A stretch of DNA of 58,953 nt from Actinomycetes bacterium (lineage in GTDB: Bacteria > Actinomycetota > Aquicultoria > UBA3085 > Oleimmundimicrobiaceae). This document shows, piece after piece, positions 2,827 through 56,483 of the stretch (its first letter is position 1; each line of letters begins with the position of its first letter). The position numbers were made by a program, and so were the translations under genes. Location of the stretch: NCBI GenBank assembly GCA_030614255.1, contig JAUWKI010000008.1:1-58953 (forward strand). Reading direction: 5' to 3'. The notes beneath the pieces were generated by a model. It did not search any database. It had not been told where the DNA came from and was given only the letters and a program-made list of their open reading frames with translations.

Positions 2827-3984
2827 TTATCGTGAGACCCGTTCCGGGCAAACCGACTCTCTTAGCACTGCAACAATTCTCTTGGATGATTTCCCATCAC
2901 CATATGGATTAACTGCTCTTGCCATCTTTTTATATTCACTCTGATCATTTAAAAGTCTCTCAGTTTCAGCTACGATGTTTTCCATGTCTGTTCCTACCAC
3001 TTTGACGGTTCCAGCCTCAACGCCTTCGGGACGCTCCGTCACTTCTCTTAAAACGAGGACGGGTTTTCCTAAAGAAGGAGCTTCTTCTTGTATCCCTCCG
3101 GAATCCGTCAAGATGATATGAGATTTGTTCATCAACTGGACGAAGGGTTCATAATCTAATGGGTCAATGAGGTGAATTCTTTCGGTATTCTTTAACACAG
3201 AGTAAGCAACTTCCCTCACTTGAGGATTCAGATGAACGGAAAAGACCACCTCAATTTCGGGATGTAACTTGGCAATCCTACTGATGGCTTCACAGATATT
3301 TTTTAGAGGTTTCCCCCAGCTCTCTCTGCGATGAGCGGTTACGAGCACGGTTCTTTTTGAATTAAAATCAATCTTGCTTAAAACAGGATGTTTAAAGATA
3401 TAATCTCTTTTAACTACCTCCAATAGAGCATCGATAACAGTATTGCCGGTAACATAAATTTTATCGGTTGGAATATTTTCTTTGAGCAAATTTTCCTTTG
3501 CAGTCTGAGTTGGAGCAAAATGCATGTCCGCCAAGTGGGTAGTTAATACTCTATTTGTTTCTTCTGGGAAAGGCCGGTATTTGTTAAATGTTCGTAAACC
3601 TGCTTCGACATGCCCCACTGAAATCTTTAAGTAAAAAGCTGCAAGGGCTGCCGCAAAGGTGGTGGTGGTATCTCCTTGAACTAAAACCATATCGGGCTTT
3701 TCTTGGAGAAAAACTTCTCTTAAATCGTGAAGCACCTTCCCGGTTACATCAAAGAGACTTTGCTTTGGACGCATGATATCCAAATCGTAATCGGGCACGA
3801 TTTCAAATAGTCTTAAAACTTGGTCGAGCATCTCTCGATGTTGAGCGGTTGCCACAGTTATCGAATGGAGCTCGGGAGATATCTCAAGTTCTTTTATGAC
3901 CGGTGCAAGTTTTATAGCCTCTGGTCTCGTACCAAAGACTGTTAATATCCGCGGTTTAAGCACAGTTCCTGTATCAGGGTTCAC
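2827..3984 (-). CDS. wecB: UDP-N-acetylglucosamine 2-epimerase (non-hydrolysing)
   Basis: The 385-codon protein interconverts UDP-GlcNAc and UDP-ManNAc. Diagnostic stretches are TVFGTRPEAIKLAPVI near the N terminus, VQGDTTT, GHVEAGLRT, FPEETNR, VTAHRRES and DSGGIQEEAP, in the order seen in WecB/MnaA. Length is normal for the family. The start is GTG, chosen because GAGGAG lies five bases upstream. It sits between a glycosyltransferase and a small EamA transporter, consistent with surface polysaccharide or teichoic-acid-like linkage synthesis. Confidence 0.95.
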   Translation of the reverse strand: MNPDTGTVLKPRILTVFGTRPEAIKLAPVIKELEISPELHSITVATAQHREMLDQVLRLFEIVPDYDLDIMRPKQSLFDVTGKVLHDLREVFLQEKPDMVLVQGDTTTTFAAALAAFYLKISVGHVEAGLRTFNKYRPFPEETNRVLTTHLADMHFAPTQTAKENLLKENIPTDKIYVTGNTVIDALLEVVKRDYIFKHPVLSKIDFNSKRTVLVTAHRRESWGKPLKNICEAISRIAKLHPEIEVVFSVHLNPQVREVAYSVLKNTERIHLIDPLDYEPFVQLMNKSHIILTDSGGIQEEAPSLGKPVLVLREVTERPEGVEAGTVKVVGTDMENIVAETERLLNDQSEYKKMARAVNPYGDGKSSKRIVAVLRESVCPERVSR

Positions 3985-22123: not shown

Positions 22124-22945
22124 TTATCCTTTGAAACCGTGCAAAAAGCTCATATAAGGCACCACTAAAAATCTGATGCTAATGACGAACAAAAAACCAG
22201 CCAAAGCTAGGATTGCCGATCTCCTCCCCATCCAACCGACCGCAACTCTTAACACCAGGTAAAAAGCATAAATTGCCCACGTTAAAAAAGTAGCTATTAC
22301 AATAGCATCGAAAAAAGTCCCCCAAACTTGATATGCCCTTATGGCTCCCGTTATGAGAGTAGTAGTTAAAAACAAGAAGCCAACAATGATCGATTTGTGT
22401 CCAACATCATCCAAAATCTGCAAAGAGGGAAGTCTTCCAAGGATTGAATCTGACTTTTTTCTTTTAAAATGCCATTCCTGCAAAAGATAGAGAACAGCAG
22501 CCCCCGCGGCTATCGCAAAGGCAGCAGAAGCCACAAACATCGACATAAAGTGAGCACTTATAAAAGAGCCCCGCAACACTTCTATTCTGGGACCGGGCGG
22601 ATGATAATAGCTCCACGCTTTTATCAGAAAGATGCAGACAAGTGGAGTTACAAACATTCCCAACGTTTTTAAGTCAGCAAAATGCTCGATAACGAGATAA
22701 CCGATAATTACAAACCAAGCAACGATAACAAGCGACTCATAAGCACTCGCTCCCAAAGACTGTTTTGAGGATAACCAGCGGGAAAATAGCGAGCCGGTTT
22801 GAATTAGCCCTCCGCAAACAGTAATCGCTGTGGCCAAAGTCCCTGTAATTTGCTTTCTGGAGATGAAGTAACTAGCATAAAATGCAAAAGCTGCCGCATA
22901 GACAAAAATCGCCAACCAGAGAAGAAAAACACTCACCTTTTCCAT
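22124..22945 (-). CDS. HemX/CcsA-family cytochrome c assembly membrane protein
   Basis: The 273-codon protein has about eight membrane helices and the layout of the CcsA/ResC/HemX family of heme-handling proteins (PF01578). Conserved features include FSRWLSSKQSLGASAYESL in an outside loop, a central PPGPRIEVLRGSFISAHFMSMF with an invariant-type His, and HKSIIVGFLFLTTTLITGAIRAYQVWG near the C terminus. HemX-like proteins are often encoded with hemA, as here. Its ATG shares one base with the TAA of ccmD. A role in heme delivery or in regulating HemA levels is inferred from context. Confidence 0.85.
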   Translation of the reverse strand: MEKVSVFLLWLAIFVYAAAFAFYASYFISRKQITGTLATAITVCGGLIQTGSLFSRWLSSKQSLGASAYESLVIVAWFVIIGYLVIEHFADLKTLGMFVTPLVCIFLIKAWSYYHPPGPRIEVLRGSFISAHFMSMFVASAAFAIAAGAAVLYLLQEWHFKRKKSDSILGRLPSLQILDDVGHKSIIVGFLFLTTTLITGAIRAYQVWGTFFDAIVIATFLTWAIYAFYLVLRVAVGWMGRRSAILALAGFLFVISIRFLVVPYMSFLHGFKG

Positions 22946-23082
22946 TAAGATTTCTCCCTTTTTACAACTTCTTTCAAGTGGTTTAAGTCTCTTCCTAAAA
23001 CCGCAAGTTTTCTTTCAATATAGAAAACATATAAAAATAGAATCAACCAAGCGGCAAAATAAGCGGCTTCAAAATAGGACAT
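22945..23082 (-). CDS. ccmD: CcmD-like heme exporter small subunit
   Basis: This short gene encodes 45 residues: an N terminus MSYFEAAYFAAWLILFLYVF that forms one membrane helix, then IERKLAVLGRD and a basic tail. CcmD proteins are tiny single-helix subunits that keep heme-loaded CcmE attached to CcmABC. Placement directly after ccmC (two-base gap) is the standard ccmABCD order. The TAA overlaps the ATG of the next gene by one base. The match is by size, topology and location, since CcmD sequences are poorly conserved. Confidence 0.8.
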   Translation of the reverse strand: MSYFEAAYFAAWLILFLYVFYIERKLAVLGRDLNHLKEVVKREKS

Positions 23083-23084
23083 GA

Positions 23085-23780
23085 CTAACCTCCGATCTCA
23101 TCTTTTAAATCCTGAATTTCTTCTTGTAAGTTAATCATGTTCACCCTTTGTCCTAAAAGGTAAACATAAAAGAGCGTCATAGACGCCAAAAAAATCAAAG
23201 TTGGTATCCACATTTGCATATCGAGTGCTTCACCAAGCGCTATCTTTGCTGGCGTAAATATCAACGGATGAGCAGTTCTCCACCACCTAATCGACATGAA
23301 CGAGATGGGAACACTTATGAAGGCAACTATGCCAAATACTGCGGTAAGACGGGGTCTGCGCTCAATGTCTCCAACCGAAAAGTGGAGCATAAGATACCCC
23401 GCGTAAAGCAACCACATTATTAAAGAGGTAGTAATCCTTGGCTCCCAAACCCACCAGACTCCCCAGGTGGGTTTATTAAAGATGGTCCCAGTTACCAAAA
23501 GCGCTGTATCGATAACCAGCCCTATCTCCGCCGAAGCATACGCAATCTTATCCCACTTTCTATCCCTGGTCTTTAAATAAAGGATGCTACATACAAACAC
23601 CACGAAAAAAGCAAAATAAGGAACAATTGCAACCGGAAAGTGGATATAAAATATCTTTTGAACGATTCCAAGATTCTTATCTAGAGGAGCACGAAAGACC
23701 GTATAAAGAGATATAAAAATTCCGATAAATGAGGCCATACCGAGAAGTCTTCTAGTAACTCTGTCCTTCAAACCCATCAC
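23085..23780 (-). CDS. ccmC: Heme exporter protein CcmC
   Basis: The 231-codon protein has six membrane helices. It presents heme on the outer face of the membrane and passes it to CcmE. The tryptophan-rich heme motif is WGVWWVWEPRITTSLIMW, with flanking histidines in YIHFPVAI near the N terminus and WWRTAHPLI in a later loop. CcmC is normal length. It overlaps ccmB by four bases and sits second to last in the ccmFABCD group. Confidence 0.95.
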   Translation of the reverse strand: MMGLKDRVTRRLLGMASFIGIFISLYTVFRAPLDKNLGIVQKIFYIHFPVAIVPYFAFFVVFVCSILYLKTRDRKWDKIAYASAEIGLVIDTALLVTGTIFNKPTWGVWWVWEPRITTSLIMWLLYAGYLMLHFSVGDIERRPRLTAVFGIVAFISVPISFMSIRWWRTAHPLIFTPAKIALGEALDMQMWIPTLIFLASMTLFYVYLLGQRVNMINLQEEIQDLKDEIGG

Positions 23781-24472
23781 TCCTCTATAACATATTCAAA
23801 GGTCAGAAAACCAACCAATGCAAAAATAATATCATAAATAGCAAGCGTTCTCAGCCATACAGTAATATCTATCCAAAATTGCTGAGTATCAATTGAAGAA
23901 ACTGATAAGACCAACTCCGTTGATTTCACCGCCGCCACCAATATCGGCACAATTACAGGTAAAAAGAGTATCGGCAGCATGAGGTCTCTTGCTTTCGTGT
24001 TAATCGAGATGGCAGAGAGAAGTGTTCCGACCACAGATAACCCTATGTTACTCAAGACTAAGATGATGATTAAAAGCCACAGGTGGGAGAGAAAGCTCTC
24101 TTGTATAAAAAATATCGTAAAGATGGGGAGCGCTATGATTTCAACCAAAGAAAGAAATATGAAGCTGGATATGGCCTTACTAAAGTAAATTGCCGAGCGA
24201 TCTATGGGACAAAGCATTAGCCCGTCAAGACAGTTTTCATCCTTCTCGTGAACGAAAATCCGGTTCAAGCCCAAGAGGGACGCGAACAAGAAGGCAATCC
24301 AAAGAAGACCTGAGGAGACGGCCTTCATAGCAGAGCTACTTCCAAAAGCAAAGTTGAACATAACCATGGTTAACAAAGCAAAGATTAACATTGAGTTAAG
24401 CATCTCTTTAGTTCTTAGCTCAGCAATTATATCTTTTTGAACCAGCGCCATTATGTGCCGCAAATAACTCAT
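23777..24472 (-). CDS. ccmB: Heme exporter ABC permease CcmB
   Basis: The 231-codon membrane protein has six helices and the CcmB pattern: LRHIMALVQKDIIAELRTKEML at the N terminus, and LNRIFVHEKDENCLDGLMLCPID after the second helix. It forms the membrane part of the CcmAB transporter, which releases holo-CcmE from CcmC. Four-base overlaps join it to ccmA and ccmC. Length and motif order are normal. Confidence 0.95.
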   Translation of the reverse strand: MSYLRHIMALVQKDIIAELRTKEMLNSMLIFALLTMVMFNFAFGSSSAMKAVSSGLLWIAFLFASLLGLNRIFVHEKDENCLDGLMLCPIDRSAIYFSKAISSFIFLSLVEIIALPIFTIFFIQESFLSHLWLLIIILVLSNIGLSVVGTLLSAISINTKARDLMLPILFLPVIVPILVAAVKSTELVLSVSSIDTQQFWIDITVWLRTLAIYDIIFALVGFLTFEYVIEE

Positions 24473-25191
24473 GCTTTGTCTCCCGCATATTCGTAATATA
24501 TGCTTTTAAAATCATCTGAATCGGGCAAATTTCCTCTTTTTGAGTAAACTATTTTGCCCCCACTGAGTATGGCCACACTATTCGCGTGAGCGAGACCTAT
24601 TTCAATGTTGTGAGTGGTCATAATCAAAGTGTGATTACCCTTCTTAAAATCCTCCAACATATCGTCAAGAACACCACTTGCGTGGACATCCAGCCCGCTG
24701 AAGGGTTCGTCCAAAAAAATTATCTCAGGATTATGCAATAGAGCTCTAGCAATTGAAAGCCGCTGTTGCATGCCTCTGGAGAAAGACCCAACGACATCAA
24801 ATTTTCGATGATCGAGCTCCACTTTCTGCAAAAGTTCAGAAATCCTATTTTCCGGCGAAGGAATATTGTACATCTTACCGTAAAAACGCAAATTTTCGTA
24901 GGCGTTAAGGTCCTTGTAGAGAAGGAGATTGTGGGAGATAAAACCAATTTTTTCTCTAATCTCAGCGGGATTTTCTTTTATTTCAAAACCATCGATGACA
25001 ATAGAACCGGAAGAAAATCCAGAAAGTGTAGATAGTATCCTTAAAAGAGTAGTTTTTCCCGCCCCGTTTGGTCCAAATATCGTTAAGAACTCACCTTTAC
25101 AGACATCTAAACTGAGCCCGTTTAATACCTTGCGTCTTCCAAAATCTTTATCCAAAGAATCTATGCAAATAAAGGGAGGAGTTTTCGACAA
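24469..25191 (-). CDS. ccmA: Heme exporter ABC ATPase CcmA
   Basis: This 240-codon ATPase has Walker A FGPNGAGKTTLLRIL, signature SFSRGMQQRLSIARAL, Walker B EIIFLDEPFSGLD and the switch His in MTTHNIEIG. With CcmB it powers release of heme-loaded CcmE. It is one base downstream of ccmF and overlaps ccmB by four bases. It is intact and of normal length, though slightly longer than the shortest CcmA proteins. Confidence 0.95.
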   Translation of the reverse strand: MSKTPPFICIDSLDKDFGRRKVLNGLSLDVCKGEFLTIFGPNGAGKTTLLRILSTLSGFSSGSIVIDGFEIKENPAEIREKIGFISHNLLLYKDLNAYENLRFYGKMYNIPSPENRISELLQKVELDHRKFDVVGSFSRGMQQRLSIARALLHNPEIIFLDEPFSGLDVHASGVLDDMLEDFKKGNHTLIMTTHNIEIGLAHANSVAILSGGKIVYSKRGNLPDSDDFKSIYYEYAGDKA

Positions 25192-25192
25192 C

Positions 25193-27151
25193 TTATTTTA
25201 CCTCACTCAATCGTGTTCTGAATTTATCGGGCCAAAAAGCAAGCGTGGTTCCAGCAAAAAGGATGATAGCTCCCGTCCAAATCCAAGACAGGAGGGGATT
25301 AAGTTTAACTTGAATACGCACAGATTCATCTTGACCATAACTTGCCAGGATAACAAATATATCTCTTACAACTCCACTCTCTATGTGGACCTTTGAAGTC
25401 CAAGTATCCTGTTTGAAATGATAAATCATCCTGGGAGTAAGCTCTCCCTTATATTTTCCATCTACACTTAATGCCAGATTTGCTCCTATTATCTCTTTTA
25501 AGGGCTCACTATTATCGACAAATAGCCCCCCATTCTTAACGGTTACATCCTTAACCTTTAAGCTTTCCCCTTTTTTCAGGGTCACTTCGCTTTCCGCAAG
25601 ATAGAAAGTGGAGCCAATGAGTCCGACAAAAATTATTATGATACCAATATGAGAAATCATTCCGCCATACCTTGCCCTGTTCGCTTTAATTTTATGCCAG
25701 AGGTTTCTCACCTGCCTACCGGCAGGCAGGCCATGCTTTTTTCCTGCTGTAACATCTTTATATAGAGTTTCAAATGTGGTGATGCCCGCAAATATGCAGA
25801 AGAAGAAACCGATACTCCCCCACAAGTTTTTATCCCAGAAAAAAAAGATGGCTAAAGCACCCACTAAACTTAAAATTAACGGAACTGTAATTTTTTTAAT
25901 AAATCTTGAGGTATCGGTTGTTTTCCAGCCTAAAAGAGGACATATGCCAATAAAAAACAGATATATATAGCCCAGTGGAGAAGCAAGCTTATTGTAGAAA
26001 GACGGCCCCAAGGATATTTGATTGTTGATGAGCAGCTCCGTTATTACAGGATAAAAAGTTCCGATGATAACTATTGCCGTAAAAAAAAGCAGAATCATGT
26101 TGTTTAAGTAAAATCCGTAGTCTTTGGAGATCAAAGACTGGATTTCATTACCTTTAAAGCTTTCGCGACGGTACAAAATTAAAAAAATGTATCCAAGGGT
26201 AAAAATTATCATAAACCAGAAGAAGTAGGCCGCGATTGACGACTGCCCAAAGGCGTGAACTGACTCTATTATGCCGCTTCTAGTAATAAAAGTACCGAGA
26301 ATACACATCAAAAATGTCGTCAAAGACAAAACTGAGGCCCATATCTTAAACATTTTTCTCTTTTTATAAACCGCCAGAGAGTGAAGAAATGCCGTGCCGG
26401 TAAGCCAGGGGAGCAGTGAAGCATTCTCAACCGGGTCCCAAGCCCAGTATCCTCCAAAAGCAAGCTCATCATAGGCCCAAAGGGAACCCAAAAATATTCC
26501 AATGCCCAAGAATAGCCAGGCAAATAATGCCCACCTTCTACACCTGGAGACCCAGGGTCCATCGGGTTGATTTGTTATCAGAGCCGCGGCCGTCAACGCA
26601 AAGGGAATGGAGAATGCCGCGTAACCGATAAACAGAGTCGGGGGATGAAAGACCATCTGAAGATGCAGAAGTAAAGGGTTCAATCCGCTGCCATCGGAAA
26701 GAACCATTGGGGCAACTTCAAATGGATTAGCCGGAAGAGCTAAGAGAAGCAGAAAGAAAGCCTGGTTAGCAACGAGTATGGACAAAGCGTACTGGGTTAA
26801 TTTGCCTTTCCTGTTTGCCAAAAGAAATATGAGCGTAAAAAGAGAAAGCAATAATTGCCAGAAAAGGAGCGAGCCTTCCTGCCCTCCCCAAAAAGCGGTT
26901 ATCTTATAAAGAAGGGGTAAGTCTCTGCTTGAATAGCCAAAAACATAAAGAATGGAGAAATCATTTACGAGAAAAGCCCTTAAAAGAATAAATGATGCGA
27001 CGCTTGAAAGAATAAAAAGAGCCCATATGCCTGTATGGCCCGTCTTAACCATCCTGCTATTTTTGGTTTTTAAGCCATATAATAAAAGGGCAGTAGCCGT
27101 AACCGCCACTGCCAATGAAAGCCAAATTGTTAGCTCTCCTAATTTTGCCAT
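25193..27151 (-). CDS. ccmF: Cytochrome c heme lyase CcmF
   Basis: The 652-codon protein has about 15 membrane helices. It transfers heme from CcmE to the CxxCH sites of apocytochromes. The tryptophan-rich motif is GGYWAWDPVENASLLPW; conserved His residues include those in MVFHPPTLFIGY and ESVHAFGQSS. A large outside domain lies before the last helix. Residues near 474-480 (GLPAGRQV) come from an in-frame copy of the CCTGCCTACCGG repeat placed in a loop. It is the second gene of the ccm operon. Confidence 0.95.
   Translation of the reverse strand: MAKLGELTIWLSLAVAVTATALLLYGLKTKNSRMVKTGHTGIWALFILSSVASFILLRAFLVNDFSILYVFGYSSRDLPLLYKITAFWGGQEGSLLFWQLLLSLFTLIFLLANRKGKLTQYALSILVANQAFFLLLLALPANPFEVAPMVLSDGSGLNPLLLHLQMVFHPPTLFIGYAAFSIPFALTAAALITNQPDGPWVSRCRRWALFAWLFLGIGIFLGSLWAYDELAFGGYWAWDPVENASLLPWLTGTAFLHSLAVYKKRKMFKIWASVLSLTTFLMCILGTFITRSGIIESVHAFGQSSIAAYFFWFMIIFTLGYIFLILYRRESFKGNEIQSLISKDYGFYLNNMILLFFTAIVIIGTFYPVITELLINNQISLGPSFYNKLASPLGYIYLFFIGICPLLGWKTTDTSRFIKKITVPLILSLVGALAIFFFWDKNLWGSIGFFFCIFAGITTFETLYKDVTAGKKHGLPAGRQVRNLWHKIKANRARYGGMISHIGIIIIFVGLIGSTFYLAESEVTLKKGESLKVKDVTVKNGGLFVDNSEPLKEIIGANLALSVDGKYKGELTPRMIYHFKQDTWTSKVHIESGVVRDIFVILASYGQDESVRIQVKLNPLLSWIWTGAIILFAGTTLAFWPDKFRTRLSEVK
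25711..25730. repeat. Perfect palindromic repeat copy inside ccmF
   Basis: CCTGCCTACCGGCAGGCAGG lies in frame in ccmF and encodes LPAGRQV in a cytoplasmic or periplasmic loop. The same 20-mer recurs in spacers near 19029-19048, 28951-28970, 29100-29119 and 32298-32317. Confidence 0.85.
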
Positions 27152-27160
27152 GTTATACCT

Positions 27161-27544
27161 CTACTCTTCAGACGTATATTTTGACGGGCATTTAGCTAAT
27201 AGACTTTCCGCTTTGATGCCCGAATCGGATTCATAAACACCTTCGACAATTACTTCTGCGTCTTTTTTGAAAGCACTTGGCAAAACCCCAGCGTAAACGA
27301 CACTAACCGAGTTCTCCCCGTCGGTAATCATAAACTTATAAATGCCTTCGCTCTCCTCTATGGCATTACCCACAACCTTCCCTGACACCTTTACGGACTT
27401 GCCATATAAGGATTCGTCCGCAATAACCTCGCTGGGAGTCCTGTAATACAGAAAAGAACTGCCTACGGTGGTATAGAGAAGAATTCCAAAGAAAACTATT
27501 ATTATAGCACTGGTAATAACAACACGCTTACGTCTTGCCTTCAT
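27161..27544 (-). CDS. ccmE: Heme chaperone CcmE, CxxxY variant
   Basis: CcmE carries heme covalently between CcmC and CcmF. The 127-codon protein has an N-terminal anchor helix (residues 8-29) and an OB-fold domain with FMITDGENSVSVVYAGVLPSAF. In most bacteria the heme attaches through His in HxxxY; here the position is Cys119 in AKCPSKYTSEE, giving CxxxY. Such Cys-type CcmE proteins are known from some Desulfovibrio and archaea, usually without CcmH. No ccmG or ccmH gene is found in this window. It is the first gene of the ccm operon. Confidence 0.93.
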   Translation of the reverse strand: MKARRKRVVITSAIIIVFFGILLYTTVGSSFLYYRTPSEVIADESLYGKSVKVSGKVVGNAIEESEGIYKFMITDGENSVSVVYAGVLPSAFKKDAEVIVEGVYESDSGIKAESLLAKCPSKYTSEE

Positions 27545-27777
27545 ACAAACCTCCCGTTTTCAAAGAAAGCTGATTTATTATACAAAATATAACTATTTAA
27601 GACAAACAAGTCGCTACCTATGCCTGACGGCAGGCACGCGCTCCAGTGCAAAATGTAAATTTAAAAGATAAATGCAGCCTTTTAAACCAGCCTTTCGATT
27701 CAGCCTTTAAACCAGCTCTTGGCCAATAGCTATTATGGATAAAACGAGATTACTTCGCCAGTGACTTATAACACTAA
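27545..27777. repeat. Spacer upstream of ccmE with a repeat copy
   Basis: The spacer contains GCCTGACGGCAGGC (27620-27634), a short form of the inverted repeat, and duplicated CAGCCTTT...AAACCAGC words (27672-27716). It likely holds the ccm promoter. No gene or RNA structure is recognised. Confidence 0.45.
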
Positions 27778-28392
27778 TCAATCAGTTTCCTTCATTATCC
27801 AAATTAAAATCAACGAAGCTGCGGATAAAAGCCCAACAATTACAAAGAAACTTAAGCGAATAAGCAGATTGGGCGAAGAGCGTGCCGGACCAGTTGGGTG
27901 AAAAATTGCGGAGCCAGCGGTTGAGTAAAGCCATATCACAACACACGAAAGAATAACATTTAAAATGGATACTATCTTTCTATCTTTTGCCCAAAGCGAA
28001 AGAAGGTAAAAGAGAGGCGCGAGAACCAAAATAAAGATGGTAATTTTAAAACGAGGCTCCGCTAGAAACAACCACTTCCCCCAGATCATCTTGGTAACAA
28101 AAGCAGCTAGTAGCCCATTTAAAACCCAAATTAAAACTGCTATTTTTTGTGAAGATTTGGACCACTTACTAAAGGAGGTTTTGTTCGAAATAAGATGCAA
28201 TACTCCAAAGATGCCGGCTAGAACAAACACCATTACACCAACCCAGGCAAGTCCCGCATGGATATAAAGAACCTTAATCCAATCACCCAATGTACTTTCG
28301 GCTGGAGAGAGAAGAGAAATGAGCAAAACAAGAACACCGGTGAGTCCGACCAGATAAAGCCCATTTTTCTTATTTAGTCGCACACTCCCCAC
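27778..28392 (-). CDS. CcmC-like six-helix membrane protein
   Basis: The 204-codon protein has about six membrane helices. KVLYIHAGLAWVGVMVF and WGKWLFLAEPRFKITIFIL resemble the corresponding CcmC segments, including the His and the W..EPR part, but the tryptophan-rich motif is weaker. A loop with AIFHPTGPARSSPN has the HPxxP pattern of CcmC. It overlaps mogA by 23 bases and starts with GTG. It may be a diverged paralogue of CcmC with a role in heme presentation. The function is inferred from similarity only. Confidence 0.65.
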   Translation of the reverse strand: MGSVRLNKKNGLYLVGLTGVLVLLISLLSPAESTLGDWIKVLYIHAGLAWVGVMVFVLAGIFGVLHLISNKTSFSKWSKSSQKIAVLIWVLNGLLAAFVTKMIWGKWLFLAEPRFKITIFILVLAPLFYLLSLWAKDRKIVSILNVILSCVVIWLYSTAGSAIFHPTGPARSSPNLLIRLSFFVIVGLLSAASLILIWIMKETD

Positions 28393-49884: not shown

Positions 49885-52800
49885 TTACTTCACCTTCCTT
49901 ATGTCCACGAGAAACGCCTTGTATTCAGGAATCATGGTGTTGGCGTCACCCACGTGTGGAGTGAGTTGGTTAGCGGAATAGTTAAGCGTCGGACACGCAC
50001 CACCGGTACAAAGTCCGGCATAACCGTAACACCAGGGAAGACCGGCAAAGTGAACCGTCTTGCCATTGATATTCATTGGTTTTACACGTCCGGTAACTAT
50101 AGCTACCGCTTGCAGAGAACCTCGAGCGTTAAACACCTCGACAGTTTCACCGGGCTCAATGTTCTTCTCATCGGCAAGTTCCTTGCTGATTTCAACGAAC
50201 ATCTCGGGCATCAAATCGACAAGCCACGGTTGGTTCCTGGTCATGATACCGGTCTGCCAGTGCTCGGTGACTCTGTAGGTTGAGCCAACGATTGGATACT
50301 CATCAGCAGTTCCAATCTTGGTATCCGGATTGACTTCATGCCAGAGCTTGATGCACGGGTTGTTCTGCTGACCGGACATGATGTTGTCAACAGGGGCTTC
50401 AACCGGCTCGTAGTGCTCAGGGAAAGGACCCTCAGCACGAGCAGCAAAGAGTCTGAAAACTCCCTCGTTTAGCATTATAGCCGGCAGGTCTCCACCCGCA
50501 GCGCTCGGTGCCTTGGTGCCTCCAAAGTCTGGAATGTCGTTACCTACCCACTTGCCTTGAGCCTCATCCCACCAAATCTCGGGAATTTCCGGATTCCATG
50601 GTTTTCCTTCAAGGTCACAGGAAGCGCGGTTGTAAACGATTCTCCTATTGACCGGCCACGCGTAAGCCCACCCAAGGTTGTTTCCAATACCTTCTGCCTC
50701 GGGCTCTCTTCTCTGCATGAGATTTTCACCCTCTTCGGTGAATGTCCCAGAGAAGAGCCAGTTACCACAGGCCGTCGTTCCGTCTTTTTCAAGCTTGGTG
50801 AAGTTCTTAACCAGCTTGTTCCTGTCGGGCCACGTGTAACCATTACAGGCCTTCGCAACCTCAACAACATCAGGGTCTCCGTTAGGTCCAGAGTAATCCC
50901 AGTAGATGTTGGTGATGATTTCAGCGGCAGCACCGCCTTCGGCCGCATAAAGCGCCTTGACCTCTTTCATGATTAGGTCAGTTATTTCAAGATCAGTCTT
51001 GCAATCGCCAAGGGGTTCGCAACCCTTCCAGCGCCATTGAATCCAACGACCGGAGTTACTGATGGAACCATCTTTCTCGCAAGAGTCGGCCGCCGGAAGT
51101 CTCCAAACCTCGGTTTGAACGGCCTCGGGATCACATCCCGGGCGTTTCCAGAAGCTGTTGCTTTCGGTCTCCCAGAGGTTAAGGTCGACCAGCCACTCAA
51201 GGTTATCCATGGCAGCAGTCTCAATGTTAGAGTTAGGCCCACCAATAGCCGGGTTTTGACCCAAGAGAAGCATGCCTTTGATTTCTCCAGCATACATCGC
51301 TTCAAATAGAGCTATGTGGGAGTAACCTGCTCCCGAGAAGCCGCCGCCAATCTTACCCATCCAGTCAAAGCGGTAACCGTTATCGGCGGTTGCTGCGTCT
51401 CCCCACCACTCCTTAAGAAGACTTACGAGATACTTCTCGCCATGTCTCCACCAGGAAGTTGAACCAGGAAGAACGTTCGCAGTAGCTTTCCCGACCGTGT
51501 ATGCATCCGCGTAACCCCTGAAGGTCTGTCCAGCCTTTGGAGTCGATAAATAAGCCGGAATGATGTGGAAGAGCAAAGCATGGTCGGTTGAACCCTGAAC
51601 ATTGGGCTCACCCCTCAGAGCGTTAACTCCACCGCCAGGCCTTCCCATGTTGCCGAGAAGCAACTGGAGCATAGCGAAAGCACGGATGTTTTCCGTTCCA
51701 ACCGTATGTTGTGTCCAACCCATGGCGTAGCAGATGGTTCCAGCTTTCTCGGGAGCTCCCGTCTTTGAGAACTCTTCACAGATTTCAATGAATTTATCCT
51801 TTGGAGTCCCACAGATTTTCTCGACCATCTCAGGAGTATAGCGAGCAGCATGTTTCTTGAGAAGCTGCCATACGCAATTGGGGTCGGACATACTCATATC
51901 CCTCTTTGGAGAGTGGATAATTCCACCTGGAGCTTTTTCGTCTACGTTATCTTCCGTCTGATAGCCCCAAGATGCCGTATCGTACTTCCTCGCCGTGGAA
52001 TCATATCCACTAAAGAGACCGTTCAAATCCCCAGGCATCTTAAATTCGGGATTAATCAACATAGCAGCATTTGTATAGCGCTTCACATATTCCTCATGGT
52101 ACTTATTGTTTTGAATTACGTAGTTGACCATGCCCATGATGAAGGGGACATCCGTACCCGAACGGATAGGTGCGTAGATGTCTGCCCTAGCGGCGGAGCG
52201 GGTAAACCTCGGGTCTACACAGATTAATTTAGCTCCCCTCTCCTCCATGGCCTTAGTTATCCATTTGAAGGACATCGGGTGATTTTCTGCGGCATTACCA
52301 CCCATGACTACAACGCAATCAGTGTTCTTCAAATCGATCCAGTGATTAGTCATACAACCTCTACCAAACGTCGGTCCCAAAGCTGCGACCGTGGCAGAGT
52401 GTCATATACGTGCTTGGTGGTCGATGTAGACAAGCCCGAGAGTTCTCATAGCTTTTACCCAAAGATAGCACTCTTCGTTGTTTACAGCCGCTCCACCTAA
52501 AGACGCAATAGTTTCGACGCGATTGACAACGTTTCCGTCCGCGTCTTTTTCGATGAAGTACTTGTCCCTAGTATCTTTTATTTTGCGAGCAATATCGGTA
52601 ATTGCGTCATCCCAGGACCTTTCCTCCCACTCACAACCGCCCGGTCCGCGATAGAGTACTTTAGTGTTTCTTTTGCCAGCTGAGTCCGCTGCCACCTGAA
52701 ACATTGAAGCGCCCTTGGAACACAAGCTACCCAGGTTCGTTGGATGATCCGGGTCACCATCTATAGCGATTGGATGACCATGTTCATCAGAATAGATTAT

Positions 52801-52977
52801 AGCGCCACAACCACAAGAACAATAAGGACAAATAGTATACGCGGTCTTTAGGCCAGTCGTCCTGAGCTCTTCTGCCTCAGCCGCAACCGCTGCCATATTA
52901 TAACCAAATTCTACAAGAGCAGTTGTCGCTACCGAAGCACCTGTAAGCTTTAAAAAACTTCTTCGTGTGAGCTTCAC
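49885..52977 (-). CDS. fdhA: Selenocysteine formate dehydrogenase catalytic subunit (TGA at 52402-52404)
   Basis: The 1030-residue protein is read through an in-frame TGA at residue 192. The Tat signal TRRSFLK is at residues 4-10. A [4Fe-4S] site uses Cys50, Cys53, Cys57 and Cys86. The TGA lies in QARI-U-HSATVAALGPTFGRG, the exact active-site context of selenocysteine formate dehydrogenases, where Sec ligates Mo or W. A hairpin follows at SECIS distance (52372-52391). Conserved NHWIDLKN and later molybdopterin-binding blocks continue without other breaks. The start is GTG. It would otherwise be called as two fragments. It oxidises formate outside the membrane. Confidence 0.96.
52372..52391 (-). 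promoter_or_regulatory. SECIS-like hairpin downstream of the fdhA TGA
   Basis: On the minus strand CGGTC, a ten-base loop GCAGCTTTGG and GACCG form a perfect five-base-pair stem. It begins about 11 bases after the TGA, in the range of bacterial SECIS elements that recruit SelB. The stem sits within codons for a conserved peptide, so it is a candidate, not proof. Confidence 0.7.
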
Positions 52978-53537: not shown

Positions 53538-54176
53538 CTAGACCTTGTCGTCACTTTTTTTAGATAGAAAATATAGAGTATATAACAATTCTTTAACCGG
53601 GTTGGTGTTGTGAACCTTAACCGTATCGGGAACCATAACAGTAACAGGAGTGTAATTAAGAACAATCTTTACCCCTGCTCCTACCAGTAAATTAGCGATA
53701 TTTTGAGCCTCCACGGCAGGAACCGCAATAACCCCAATAGTTATCTTTTTTTCTTTAATCACTTTTTTTAAACTTTTAATGTCGCCGACTTTATGTTTGC
53801 CGACTTTTTTGCCAATTTTAGTTGTATCGTTATCAAATATAGCCGACACAGAAAAACCGTGTACTGCAAACCCATCATAACCCACAATTGCTGAACCTAA
53901 ATTACCGGCTCCAACAACGGCTATCTTATGAGATTCATCTGACCCTAGTATATGTTTAATTCTCAAGATAAGATCATCTGTATTGTAACCTACACCCTTC
54001 TTCCCGAAAGTCCCAAAATGAGCTAAGTCACGTCGTATTTCGGCGGGGTTTATCTTCGTAAGTTCTCCAAGTCTTTTTGAGGATATAGTGACACAGTCAT
54101 TTTGTTTGAGTTCTATCAAAAAATCCAAATATATAGGAAGCCTTCCTATTACCCCTTCGGGAATTCTTTCACTCAT
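53538..54176 (-). CDS. rex: Redox-sensing transcriptional repressor Rex
   Basis: Rex senses the NADH/NAD ratio and represses fermentation and respiration genes when NAD dominates. The N-terminal winged helix contains RLGELTKINPAEIRRDLAHFGTFGKKGVGYN, and the NAD-binding domain has VVGAGNLGSAIVGYDGF and VHNTNPVKELLY at the domain-swapped end. The ATG at 54176 gives the family-typical MSERIPEGVIGRLPIYL; upstream in-frame starts to 54248 are less likely. It is divergent from the selenoprotein operon and upstream of fdhA. Confidence 0.93.
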   Translation of the reverse strand: MSERIPEGVIGRLPIYLDFLIELKQNDCVTISSKRLGELTKINPAEIRRDLAHFGTFGKKGVGYNTDDLILRIKHILGSDESHKIAVVGAGNLGSAIVGYDGFAVHGFSVSAIFDNDTTKIGKKVGKHKVGDIKSLKKVIKEKKITIGVIAVPAVEAQNIANLLVGAGVKIVLNYTPVTVMVPDTVKVHNTNPVKELLYTLYFLSKKSDDKV

Positions 54177-54336
54177 AATTTTATCTCTCATCTCCAATAG
54201 ATTATTAAGAATTCTATCACTTCTTAATATCACTGTCTTTTCGAGCAAACAACCAAGGATGAAATAATTTTTCTAGAAGATTTACTTAAGCATTTATGGT
54301 ATGATTTTGACAACAAGATAAAGGGGAGTGACGAAG
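54177..54336. other. Divergent spacer between rex and the selenoprotein operon
   Basis: The 160-base spacer should contain the promoters of both rex (minus) and the plus-strand operon. A TATGAT word at 54299-54304 could be a -10 element for the plus strand; no good -35 match is seen at the right distance. No clear Rex palindrome could be identified by eye. Confidence 0.4.
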
Positions 54337-54705
54337 ATGCGTAAGGTATTAGTCCTGCTTGCAATCTTTACTTTCTTGATTGTCACCGTAAGTGCAATAT
54401 CGTGTGGCCCACCTACCAAAGAACCTTCTGAAAGACCAACCATCATTGAATTTTACAGTGAGACCTGACCAATCTGCACAGAGCAGAAGCCCATCGTTGA
54501 TGGGCTAGAAAAAAAGTATGAAAAGAGCATAAACTTAACGAGAATTGAGCTTAGGTCTCCCGAGTGGAAAACCGAATCAGAAAAATACAACGTAACATCG
54601 GTACCCGCTTTTATCTTTCTTACCCCAGATGGAGAAGTGGTTGAAAAACTAGAGAACCTCCAAGAAAAAGCTACTCTTGAAAATAAAATCAAGAACCTTC
54701 TCTAA
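54337..54705 (+). CDS. Selenocysteine thioredoxin-like lipoprotein (TGA at 54466-54468), UxxC
   Basis: The 122-residue protein has a lipoprotein signal ending VSAISC, so Cys23 would be lipidated. A thioredoxin fold follows (IIEFYS). The active site is ET-U-P-I-C-T-E-Q, with the in-frame TGA as residue 44 replacing the first Cys of the CxxC pair. A cis-proline loop TSVPAFIFL is at the expected place. RBS AGGGGAG precedes the ATG by about seven bases. Reading starts fresh from ATG and continues to a TAA without other stops. It is the first gene of a three-gene plus-strand operon. A thiol/selenol reductase outside the membrane is likely. Confidence 0.85.
54488..54506 (+). promoter_or_regulatory. 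SECIS-like hairpin in the first selenothioredoxin gene
   Basis: AGCCCATC, loop GTT and GATGGGCT form a perfect eight-base-pair stem starting 19 bases after the TGA. The loop contains GU. The third gene of the operon has almost the same element at the same distance. Confidence 0.7.
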
Positions 54706-54722
54706 TCTGAGGAGCAATAAAG

Positions 54723-56051
54723 ATGAGAAGAATGACTTATCGTTTAATCATTTTTGCGGTAATTTTGATTTTAATTTCGGTCATTGCCTCATACACTAAG
54801 AAACCGGAAGAAACAGTTGAGTCCGATAAAATTATGTCGACAACGACGGTAAAAAGCGAAGGTTTCACAGAGCCCGAAGGATGCACCTGACATGCCCAAA
54901 TGTACGAGCACTGGAAGAGCTCGATGCTTAGCAGATCATATGAGGATGAACTATTTAGAAAACTTTACCTTCTCGGAAGCGAAGAAACGGACGGGTTAAT
55001 TGACGAGTTTTGCATGCGATGCCACTCCCCTGTTGGAGTTTACCTCAAAGAAATCCCACCCGCCGATGGCTCAAAGCTTAGTAAAATTGCAAAAAGAGGT
55101 GTATTTTGTGATTTTTGCCATACAATCTCCGGTTACGAAAAGATTGGAAATGGCACCTATGAGCTTTCACCCGGTATAGTAAAGCTGGGCCCTTTCGAAG
55201 AGTCAGAATCTCCCGGCCACGAAACTGCCTATTCTGAGCTTCACACAAAGTCGGAATTTTGTGGAATATGCCACAACCTGTATCACCCGACAAATAACAT
55301 ACCCTTGGAATTGACTTATACGGAGTGGGAAGAGGGACCATACGCTGAAGAGGGAATCCAGTGTCAGGATTGTCATATGAGGCAGAGCCCAGGCATCCCG
55401 GCTACTGGAACAACTGAGAGACCCGACTATCCGGGTATAGCCGGCGCGGGAGGAGGAAAGAGGCCCCATCTTTACACGCACTACTTTATAGGAGGTAATA
55501 CAATTTCTCAGATACAGACCGATGATGGATATACGCAGATGGCAATAGAACGTTTACAAGCAGCTGCGACTCTCGAAATAACCCCTCCCACAAATGTAAT
55601 AGCGGGCACGGAAAATACTGTCAAAGTCAAAATTACAAATGCCGGGGCTGGTCATTATCTCCCAACCGGCCTTACTGAACTCAGACAGATGTGGTTATAC
55701 ATAAAAATAACCGATGACTCCGGTAAAGTAATATATGAATCGGGGACTCTAGACAACGAGGGAAATATAGATCAGGTGTCCACCATATATCACTCGGTCT
55801 TTGCGGACAAAGATGGCAACCCAACTGAAAAGTTGTGGGAGATAGAAAGCCCCATCTCAGACAATCGCATCCCGCCTAAAGAATCCGCCACCGAGGAGTA
55901 TTTGTTCACCATTCCCATCGGAGCAACCTTGCCGCTCAATGTTGAAGCCACCTTAAAGTATCGTTCTGCACCCCAGCATTTGGTCGATGAACTATTTGGA
56001 AAAGACAAAGTCGTTCCCTTGGTGATTGACATGGTAACGGAAAAAAGTTAA
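54723..56051 (+). CDS. Multiheme c-type cytochrome with selenocysteine near its first heme site (TGA at 54888-54890)
   Basis: The 442-residue protein begins with a membrane or signal helix (residues 5-23). At residue 56 an in-frame TGA gives E-G-C-T-U-H-A-Q-M-Y-E-H-W-K-S-S. In related cytochromes this block reads CxxCHxxxYxxWxxS, so Sec takes the second Cys position and Gly the first. Four regular heme sites follow: CMRCH (97), CDFCH (129), CGICH (180) and CQDCH (214). A C-terminal Ig-like domain lies after residue 225. GGAG precedes the ATG. It lies 17 bases after the first selenothioredoxin gene. The role is unknown; electron transfer or reduction outside the membrane is likely. Confidence 0.82.
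54905..54923 (+). promoter_or_regulatory. SECIS-like hairpin in the selenocytochrome gene
   Basis: CGAGC, loop ACTGGAAGA and GCTCG form a five-base-pair stem starting 14 bases after the TGA. The distance and size fit bacterial SECIS elements. The stem falls in codons for YEHWKSS, so some of the pairing may reflect protein conservation. Confidence 0.6.
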
Positions 56052-56090
56052 ATAAACAGAGTGTCCATGTTGATAAAGACAGGAGAAGTT

Positions 56091-56483
56091 ATGAGCAAGG
56101 TATTCATAAAACTTATGGCCCTTTTAATATTCTGCTTTATGATGGCGATTGTTTTAAGCTCTTGCACTTCAACATCGAATGAACCTTTCGGCGAGTTCTC
56201 GGATAAACCTCTCGTCATAGAATTATACTCCCCTGGCTGACCAGCTTGCGTAGAGATGAAGCCCATCGTCGATGAGCTGAAGGAAAAATATCAGGAAGAA
56301 GTCGATTTTAAAATAATTGATATCAACAGCACGGAGGGTCAGGAAAAGGCCTCAAAATATGGGGTCTCATATATCCCTACATTTGTTTTTCAAAAAACAA
56401 ACAGTGAAATTAATGAAAAAATAGTGGGTCCAATGAGTAAAGAAGCTTTTGAGGTTAGAATAATTGAGCTTAAAGAAAATTAA
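56091..56483 (+). CDS. Second selenocysteine thioredoxin-like lipoprotein (TGA at 56238-56240), UxxC
   Basis: The 130-residue protein has a signal ending IVLSSC (Cys25 lipidated) and a thioredoxin fold. Residue 50 is the in-frame TGA in SPG-U-P-A-C-V-E-M, giving the same U-P-x-C arrangement as the first gene. VSYIPTFVF carries the cis-proline. The stretch KPIVDELKEKYQ is nearly the same as KPIVDGLEKKYE in the first gene, so the two are paralogues. AGGAG lies five bases upstream of the ATG. It ends one base before the convergent M50 protease gene, with no terminator between. Confidence 0.85.
56260..56278 (+). promoter_or_regulatory. SECIS-like hairpin in the second selenothioredoxin gene
   Basis: AGCCCATC, loop GTC and GATGAGCT form an eight-position stem with one mismatch, starting 19 bases after the TGA. 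It copies the element in the first gene (AGCCCATC-GTT-GATGGGCT). The same spacing and sequence in two genes argues for function. Confidence 0.65.

Follow-up and report, generated by a model that had tools for sequence, protein, structure and literature searches.

Why would a selenocysteine sit in the heme-attachment motif of a multiheme cytochrome, and why would the gene be flanked by two thioredoxins that also appear to contain this residue? Selenocysteine (Sec) is known chiefly from the catalytic sites of oxidoreductases, and few protein motifs are as constrained as heme c sites. The 58,953-nt stretch of actinomycetotal DNA analyzed here (the window) carries, near its 3′ end, a predicted selenocytochrome whose first heme motif holds Sec, is shortened and has dropped a candidate ligand, with seleno-thioredoxins on both sides. 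The locus can be regarded as a natural experiment, implying either that the motif was converted to a selenol redox site connected to hemes or that heme is naturally bound through selenium.

Organization of the Locus

The contig containing the window is part of a 1.44-Mb genome in 52 contigs, estimated to be 97% complete. Three plus-strand frames, 54337-54705, 54723-56051 and 56091-56483, are each open apart from a single in-frame TGA, and are separated by gaps of only 17 and 39 nt. Shine-Dalgarno-like sequences precede the three ATG codons (GGGGAG, GAGGAG and CAGGAG in gene order), bearing out a previous sequence-only reading that had described three plus-strand genes, each with one in-frame TGA and its own ribosome site and start. 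The first frame encodes a 122-aa exported UxxC thioredoxin (trx1; SETUPIC, with a looser lipobox, SAISC) in which the TGA at 54466-54468 corresponds to Sec44. The second encodes a 442-aa cytochrome of the pentaheme c552/ExtKL type with a C-terminal beta domain, and the third a 130-aa UxxC thioredoxin lipoprotein (trx2; SPGUPAC, lipobox LSSC) with the TGA of Sec50 at 56238-56240.

The divergent neighbor of the operon is a Rex-type redox-sensing repressor (53538-54248, minus strand; PF06971 and PF02629), which is not found at the corresponding place in one of the other genomes carrying the operon (G117). A promoter and terminator scan gave no signal above chance and no operon promoter. Elsewhere in the window, on the minus strand, are cytochrome c maturation genes of system I (CcmE, CcmF and CcmC-type; 22124-28392), which support export and heme attachment, and the genome encodes three CcdA/DsbD-type membrane proteins. 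Both heme attachment and a transmembrane supply of thiol electrons would thus be possible. The window also contains a formate dehydrogenase alpha subunit (49885-52977, minus strand), interrupted by one in-frame TGA (52402-52404; ARIUHSATV), with iron-sulfur and NrfD-type membrane subunits downstream; this is a further, ordinary selenoprotein.

Reading of TGA as Selenocysteine

The genome has the components for Sec insertion: a tRNA-Sec (74 bits against a cut-off of 47), selA and selB directly adjoining it (identified by eye from their translations), and selD (365.6 bits), which carries a TGA itself. Absence of this machinery, named in the sequence-only reading as grounds for refutation, is therefore not what we found. 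TGA also serves as an ordinary terminator, as had been claimed, ending 14 of the 48 window open reading frames longer than 150 aa.

The window genome belongs to the family Candidatus Oleimmundimicrobiaceae (Actinomycetota, Ca. Aquicultoria), from which five genomes were sampled. The three-gene order, for which a search in related genomes had been proposed, occurs with TGA at all three sites in four of them (the window genome, G306, G117 and G138). These four span three genera and include Ca. Oleimmundimicrobium americanum; the fifth (G005) is the only sampled family genome without the cytochrome. In non-Sec homologues all three TGA codons align with cysteines, that of trx1 with a cysteine of CxxC in all four genomes. 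Downstream of the TGA, dN/dS across all genome pairs was approximately 0.07-0.10 (cytochrome), 0.06-0.12 (trx1) and 0.09-0.20 (trx2), by a rough Nei-Gojobori estimate with dS near saturation and with ranges given only where dS could be estimated. With values well below 1, purifying selection acts on the sequence past the TGA in all three genes. Homologues retain conserved sequence beyond each codon, in contrast to the plain stop that the sequence-only reading had named as its other ground for refutation. Insertion of Sec at the three sites is, on these comparisons, almost certainly the correct prediction.

A genome-wide search for more Sec genes by codon bias was uninformative, its scores carrying no signal in this genome. 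A motif scan added just one candidate, a second FdhA judged by eye; a formate dehydrogenase-like frame on the minus strand near position 3845 of another locus (L237; G000 C43 120001-129490) has TGA at the Sec position (ARLUHAPTVAG).

Hairpins resembling bacterial SECIS elements were sought with the published rule as summarized in PMC13188914. The rule is passed by all four Sec cytochrome genes, as opposed to 5 of the 53 Cys homologues examined at the corresponding codon; the loops read GGA, GGAA or GGAC, invariably 22 nt past the TGA (in the window, 54902-54927 with loop GGA). For the thioredoxins a hairpin 27 nt past the TGA covaries across 17 genes of the class, with 12 double-change cells compared with 2.9 +/- 1.5 in shuffles and a covariation score of 0.323 compared with 0.132, a value reached by 0 of 500 shuffles and approached by no slid version, the shuffles taking no account of relatedness among genes. 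Window trx1 (54488-54506, loop GTT) passes the energy rule and trx1 of the other three genomes misses it. In several individual thioredoxin genes the hairpin has weak folding energy, window trx2 (56260-56278) among them, where the sequence is borderline on the energy rule with a different fold. The case for a SECIS-like hairpin is thus clear in the cytochrome gene, comes from covariation across the thioredoxins taken together, and is weak in trx2 by itself.

The Flanking Thioredoxins

Both thioredoxins match PF00085 (47.1 bits for trx1 and 58.2 for trx2; cut-off 23.5) with active sites UPIC and UPAC, and both fall below the TIGR01068 thioredoxin cut-off (44.7 and 51.2 vs 96.8 bits). Together with the single thioredoxin of G005 they form one clade (support 95/95), and they arose by duplication within the family. 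The neighborhood in G005 (L154, C7 8000-23000) comprises a ThiI-like gene, an M50 peptidase, the thioredoxin, Rex and an FdhA split as if by Sec, with no cytochrome. Since this neighborhood is kept without it, the cytochrome may have been gained between the duplicated thioredoxins or lost in G005.

Exported UxxC thioredoxins recur in the class, where most are lone genes in different surroundings with no adjoining cytochrome (neighbors named by eye), for example beside a thioredoxin reductase (G234) or beside a cytosolic thioredoxin (f2 genomes). As they are common in this form, trx1 and trx2 are not new in themselves. The class loci L154-L163 hold such genes, and the copy at L162 (G181) has a plain Cys. 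Three class UxxC thioredoxins that were scanned (from L153, L155 and L156) reached no NCBIfam cut-off.

The Pentaheme-Type Cytochrome and Its First Heme Motif

By profile, the cytochrome is closest among solved structures to the penta-heme cytochrome c552 of Thermochromatium tepidum (5ze8, E 2.5e-26), followed by MccSep structures (9wt8 and others). An AlphaFold2 model built from 53 sequences, without heme or Sec, had a pLDDT of 86.7 and a pTM of 0.83 and aligned with 5ze8 by Foldseek (E 1.4e-18, TM 0.60/0.68), matching both its fold and the C-terminal beta domain. ExtKL and cytochromes of cable bacteria have been placed in one pentaheme family structurally similar to the T. tepidum protein (PMC11976967). 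Homologues are widespread, occurring in ANME and other Methanosarcinales, anammox planctomycetes, Nitrospirota and other Actinomycetota; no relatives were found on viral contigs. The start of the gene (54723-54830) encodes Tyr (IASY) at the place of the lipobox Cys (IASC) of the three relatives, so the window cytochrome may not be lipidated and may instead be secreted or anchored in the membrane.

The sequence contains four CXXCH motifs, CMRCH (55011-55025), CDFCH (55107-55121), CGICH (55260-55274) and CQDCH (55362-55376), and one CxUH. The latter is heme motif 1, Cys54-Thr-Sec56-His57 (GCTUHAQ; 54882-54893, TGA at 54888-54890), as identified by comparison with Cys homologues, nearly all of which have CxxCH there, the exceptions being two with CxCH (L023 and L024). 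Outside the family no homologue compared has a TGA at this place. In the Sec clade, Sec stands in for the second cysteine of the motif and the spacer is one residue shorter; Cys54, the proximal His57 and Trp64 are retained. The sequence-only reading had put each TGA at a redox-active position. This holds for the thioredoxins, where Sec aligns with a CxxC cysteine, and not for the cytochrome, where it replaces a heme-motif cysteine that is no known catalytic residue. The description of a selenocytochrome was sound as to the selenoprotein, and overlooked both the location of Sec inside the heme-1 CxUH and the accompanying loss of a conserved histidine.

That histidine belongs to a set of five outside the motifs (69, 166, 188, 253 and 311) that are invariant across 50 aligned Cys homologues. 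Because they equal the hemes in number, they are candidate axial ligands. His69 is the only one of the five lost in the Sec clade, which has Leu there (54927-54929 in the window), His being present in 50/50 Cys homologues. Nearby, the Sec clade has His63 (54909-54911 in the window) where 45/50 have Gln. The remaining four candidate ligands are retained, as are the four CXXCH motifs. Two comparisons qualify this pattern. More distant homologues outside the 50-sequence alignment (L028-L030) have Met at the His69 place, so the absence of this His, taken by itself, does not set the Sec clade apart. The two CxCH sequences, which are from Actinomycetota, lack Sec and retain the later His; they indicate that a shortened spacer can arise without Sec, and heme sites may be able to accommodate it. 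The combination of motif change, His69 to Leu and Gln63 to His fits a site that would no longer hold an ordinary bis-His heme.

Possible Roles of the Altered Site

The explanation we favor, with a probability of about 0.48, is that the heme-1 site has turned into a redox-active Cys-x-Sec pair that is connected to four hemes and works with the seleno-thioredoxins. Three SelB-decoded, exported selenoproteins would be made from one operon. With the heme-1 attachment site changed to Cys-x-Sec-His and the candidate axial His gone, heme 1 would be lost or altered, and the Cys54/Sec56 pair could act as a selenol/selenylsulfide redox center at the end of the remaining four-heme wire. This pair would presumably exchange electrons with both seleno-thioredoxins, which in turn may pass electrons on to, or draw them from, thiol, disulfide or oxidized substrates outside the cytoplasmic membrane. 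The UxxC thioredoxins on both sides and the conservation of the operon in the family appear to support such a redox site. Several observations seem to count against it: the protein still has Cys54 and the proximal His57, both of which heme attachment would require, CxCH occurs in L023 and L024, Met occurs in L028-L030, the trx2 hairpin is weak, and G005 has no cytochrome. Gene order alone suggests that the three are functional partners. The electron path put forward in the sequence-only reading, extracytoplasmic and selenol-dependent, is plausible, and the operon is a candidate for joining heme wires to thiol chemistry beyond the cytoplasmic membrane. Elsewhere in the genome, two loci (L204, G000 C24 1-20000, and L258) hold clustered genes for large multiheme cytochromes with up to 14 CxxCH per protein, a possible extracellular electron route.

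Retention of Cys54, His57 and Trp64 could instead mean that heme 1 is still anchored, through a thioether at Cys54 and a selenoether at Sec56, with the thioredoxins acting as dedicated CcmG/ResA-type reductants that keep the motif reduced for attachment. The existence of CxCH relatives, the Ccm genes within the window and the exported thiol/selenol reductants encoded on both flanks would all suit this arrangement. Yet Sec would bring no obvious benefit to a structural heme link, and the candidate ligand His69 has been lost. Nor did the open-access literature searched hold any precedent or account of Sec at a heme motif, its absence being weak evidence as subscription journals were largely uncovered. 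On balance we consider a selenoether heme unlikely, though it is the foremost competitor of the redox-site reading.

Loss of His69 with the proximal His57 kept and a new His63 would also suit a heme 1 bound without its distal His, leaving an open iron beside Sec56 (and His63) as a catalytic heme-selenol site for a small oxidant such as selenite, peroxide, polysulfide or nitrite, with the thioredoxins re-reducing Sec. The related ExtKL has been linked to selenite reduction in Geobacter (PMC5877670). However, there are no ext neighbors around the operon, and His69 is a candidate ligand that may serve another heme; we rank this possibility behind heme attachment through selenium and doubt it somewhat more.

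It is improbable that the proteins are true selenoproteins whose adjacency is functionally incidental, with the thioredoxins acting in general repair of disulfides or methionine sulfoxide and the cytochrome as an independent electron carrier. Such a view could draw on the single exported UxxC thioredoxins of other class genomes, which have no such cytochrome adjoining, but four genomes from three genera have preserved the order and tight spacing, even as the thioredoxin pair was duplicated around the cytochrome. Least credible, and rejected here, is the proposal that the TGA codons are true stops, sequencing errors or a reassigned codon, which has no support beyond the codons themselves and is opposed by identical TGAs in four separately assembled genomes, low downstream dN/dS, normal TGA stops elsewhere, the full Sec machinery and the loss of the signal peptide that a restart at ATG 54900, just past the cytochrome TGA, would entail.

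Comparison with Known Selenoprotein Systems

Searches of the open-access literature, with subscription journals largely uncovered, returned no description of this three-gene selenoprotein operon, in keeping with the sequence-only reading, which knew of none, and nothing relevant on MccSep and Ca. Oleimmundimicrobium. Sec thioredoxins are already catalogued (PMC13188914), and trx1 and trx2 are of the same kind as the known UxxC seleno-thioredoxins (PF00085), from which they are distinguished by being exported and paired around a cytochrome. The Tso and SAO operons likewise place several selenoproteins side by side, thioredoxin-like ones included (PMC13188914). The window proteins reached none of their cut-offs (SaoT 19.8/65, TsoX 21.2/52 and TsoC 13.5/45 bits, with TsoB also below).

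The T. tepidum c552 (5ze8) shares the fold of the window cytochrome but has no reported Sec, a CxxCH-type heme 1 and the following His. Octaheme OTR selenocytochromes (TIGR04315) are similarly multiheme and Sec-containing. Theirs are eight heme motifs with Sec at NNFU, in contrast to five motif sites in the window cytochrome, whose NCBIfam matches do not include TIGR04315; because the NNFU Sec lies outside the motifs, we rejected these proteins as a precedent for Sec in a heme motif. Octaheme cytochromes with Sec at NNFU, or Cys in others, were seen at L286, L289, L290, L294, L296, L298, L302 and L303, and the Sec forms are frequent in the sampled genomes of their phylum.

A further parallel is ExtKL/MccSep (NF040886; PDB 9wt8, U325), a related pentaheme selenocytochrome of comparable size with a C-terminal beta domain. 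Its Sec is in that domain (GHxIPDGU), where the window cytochrome reads GHYLPTGL and instead has Sec in heme motif 1. The window protein scores 49.3 bits against NF040886 (cut-off 250), and plain ExtKL membership was rejected on this score and the position of Sec. As Sec lies outside the heme motifs in both catalogued types tested (ExtKL and octaheme), the window cytochrome would represent a third type of selenocytochrome with a new kind of Sec position.
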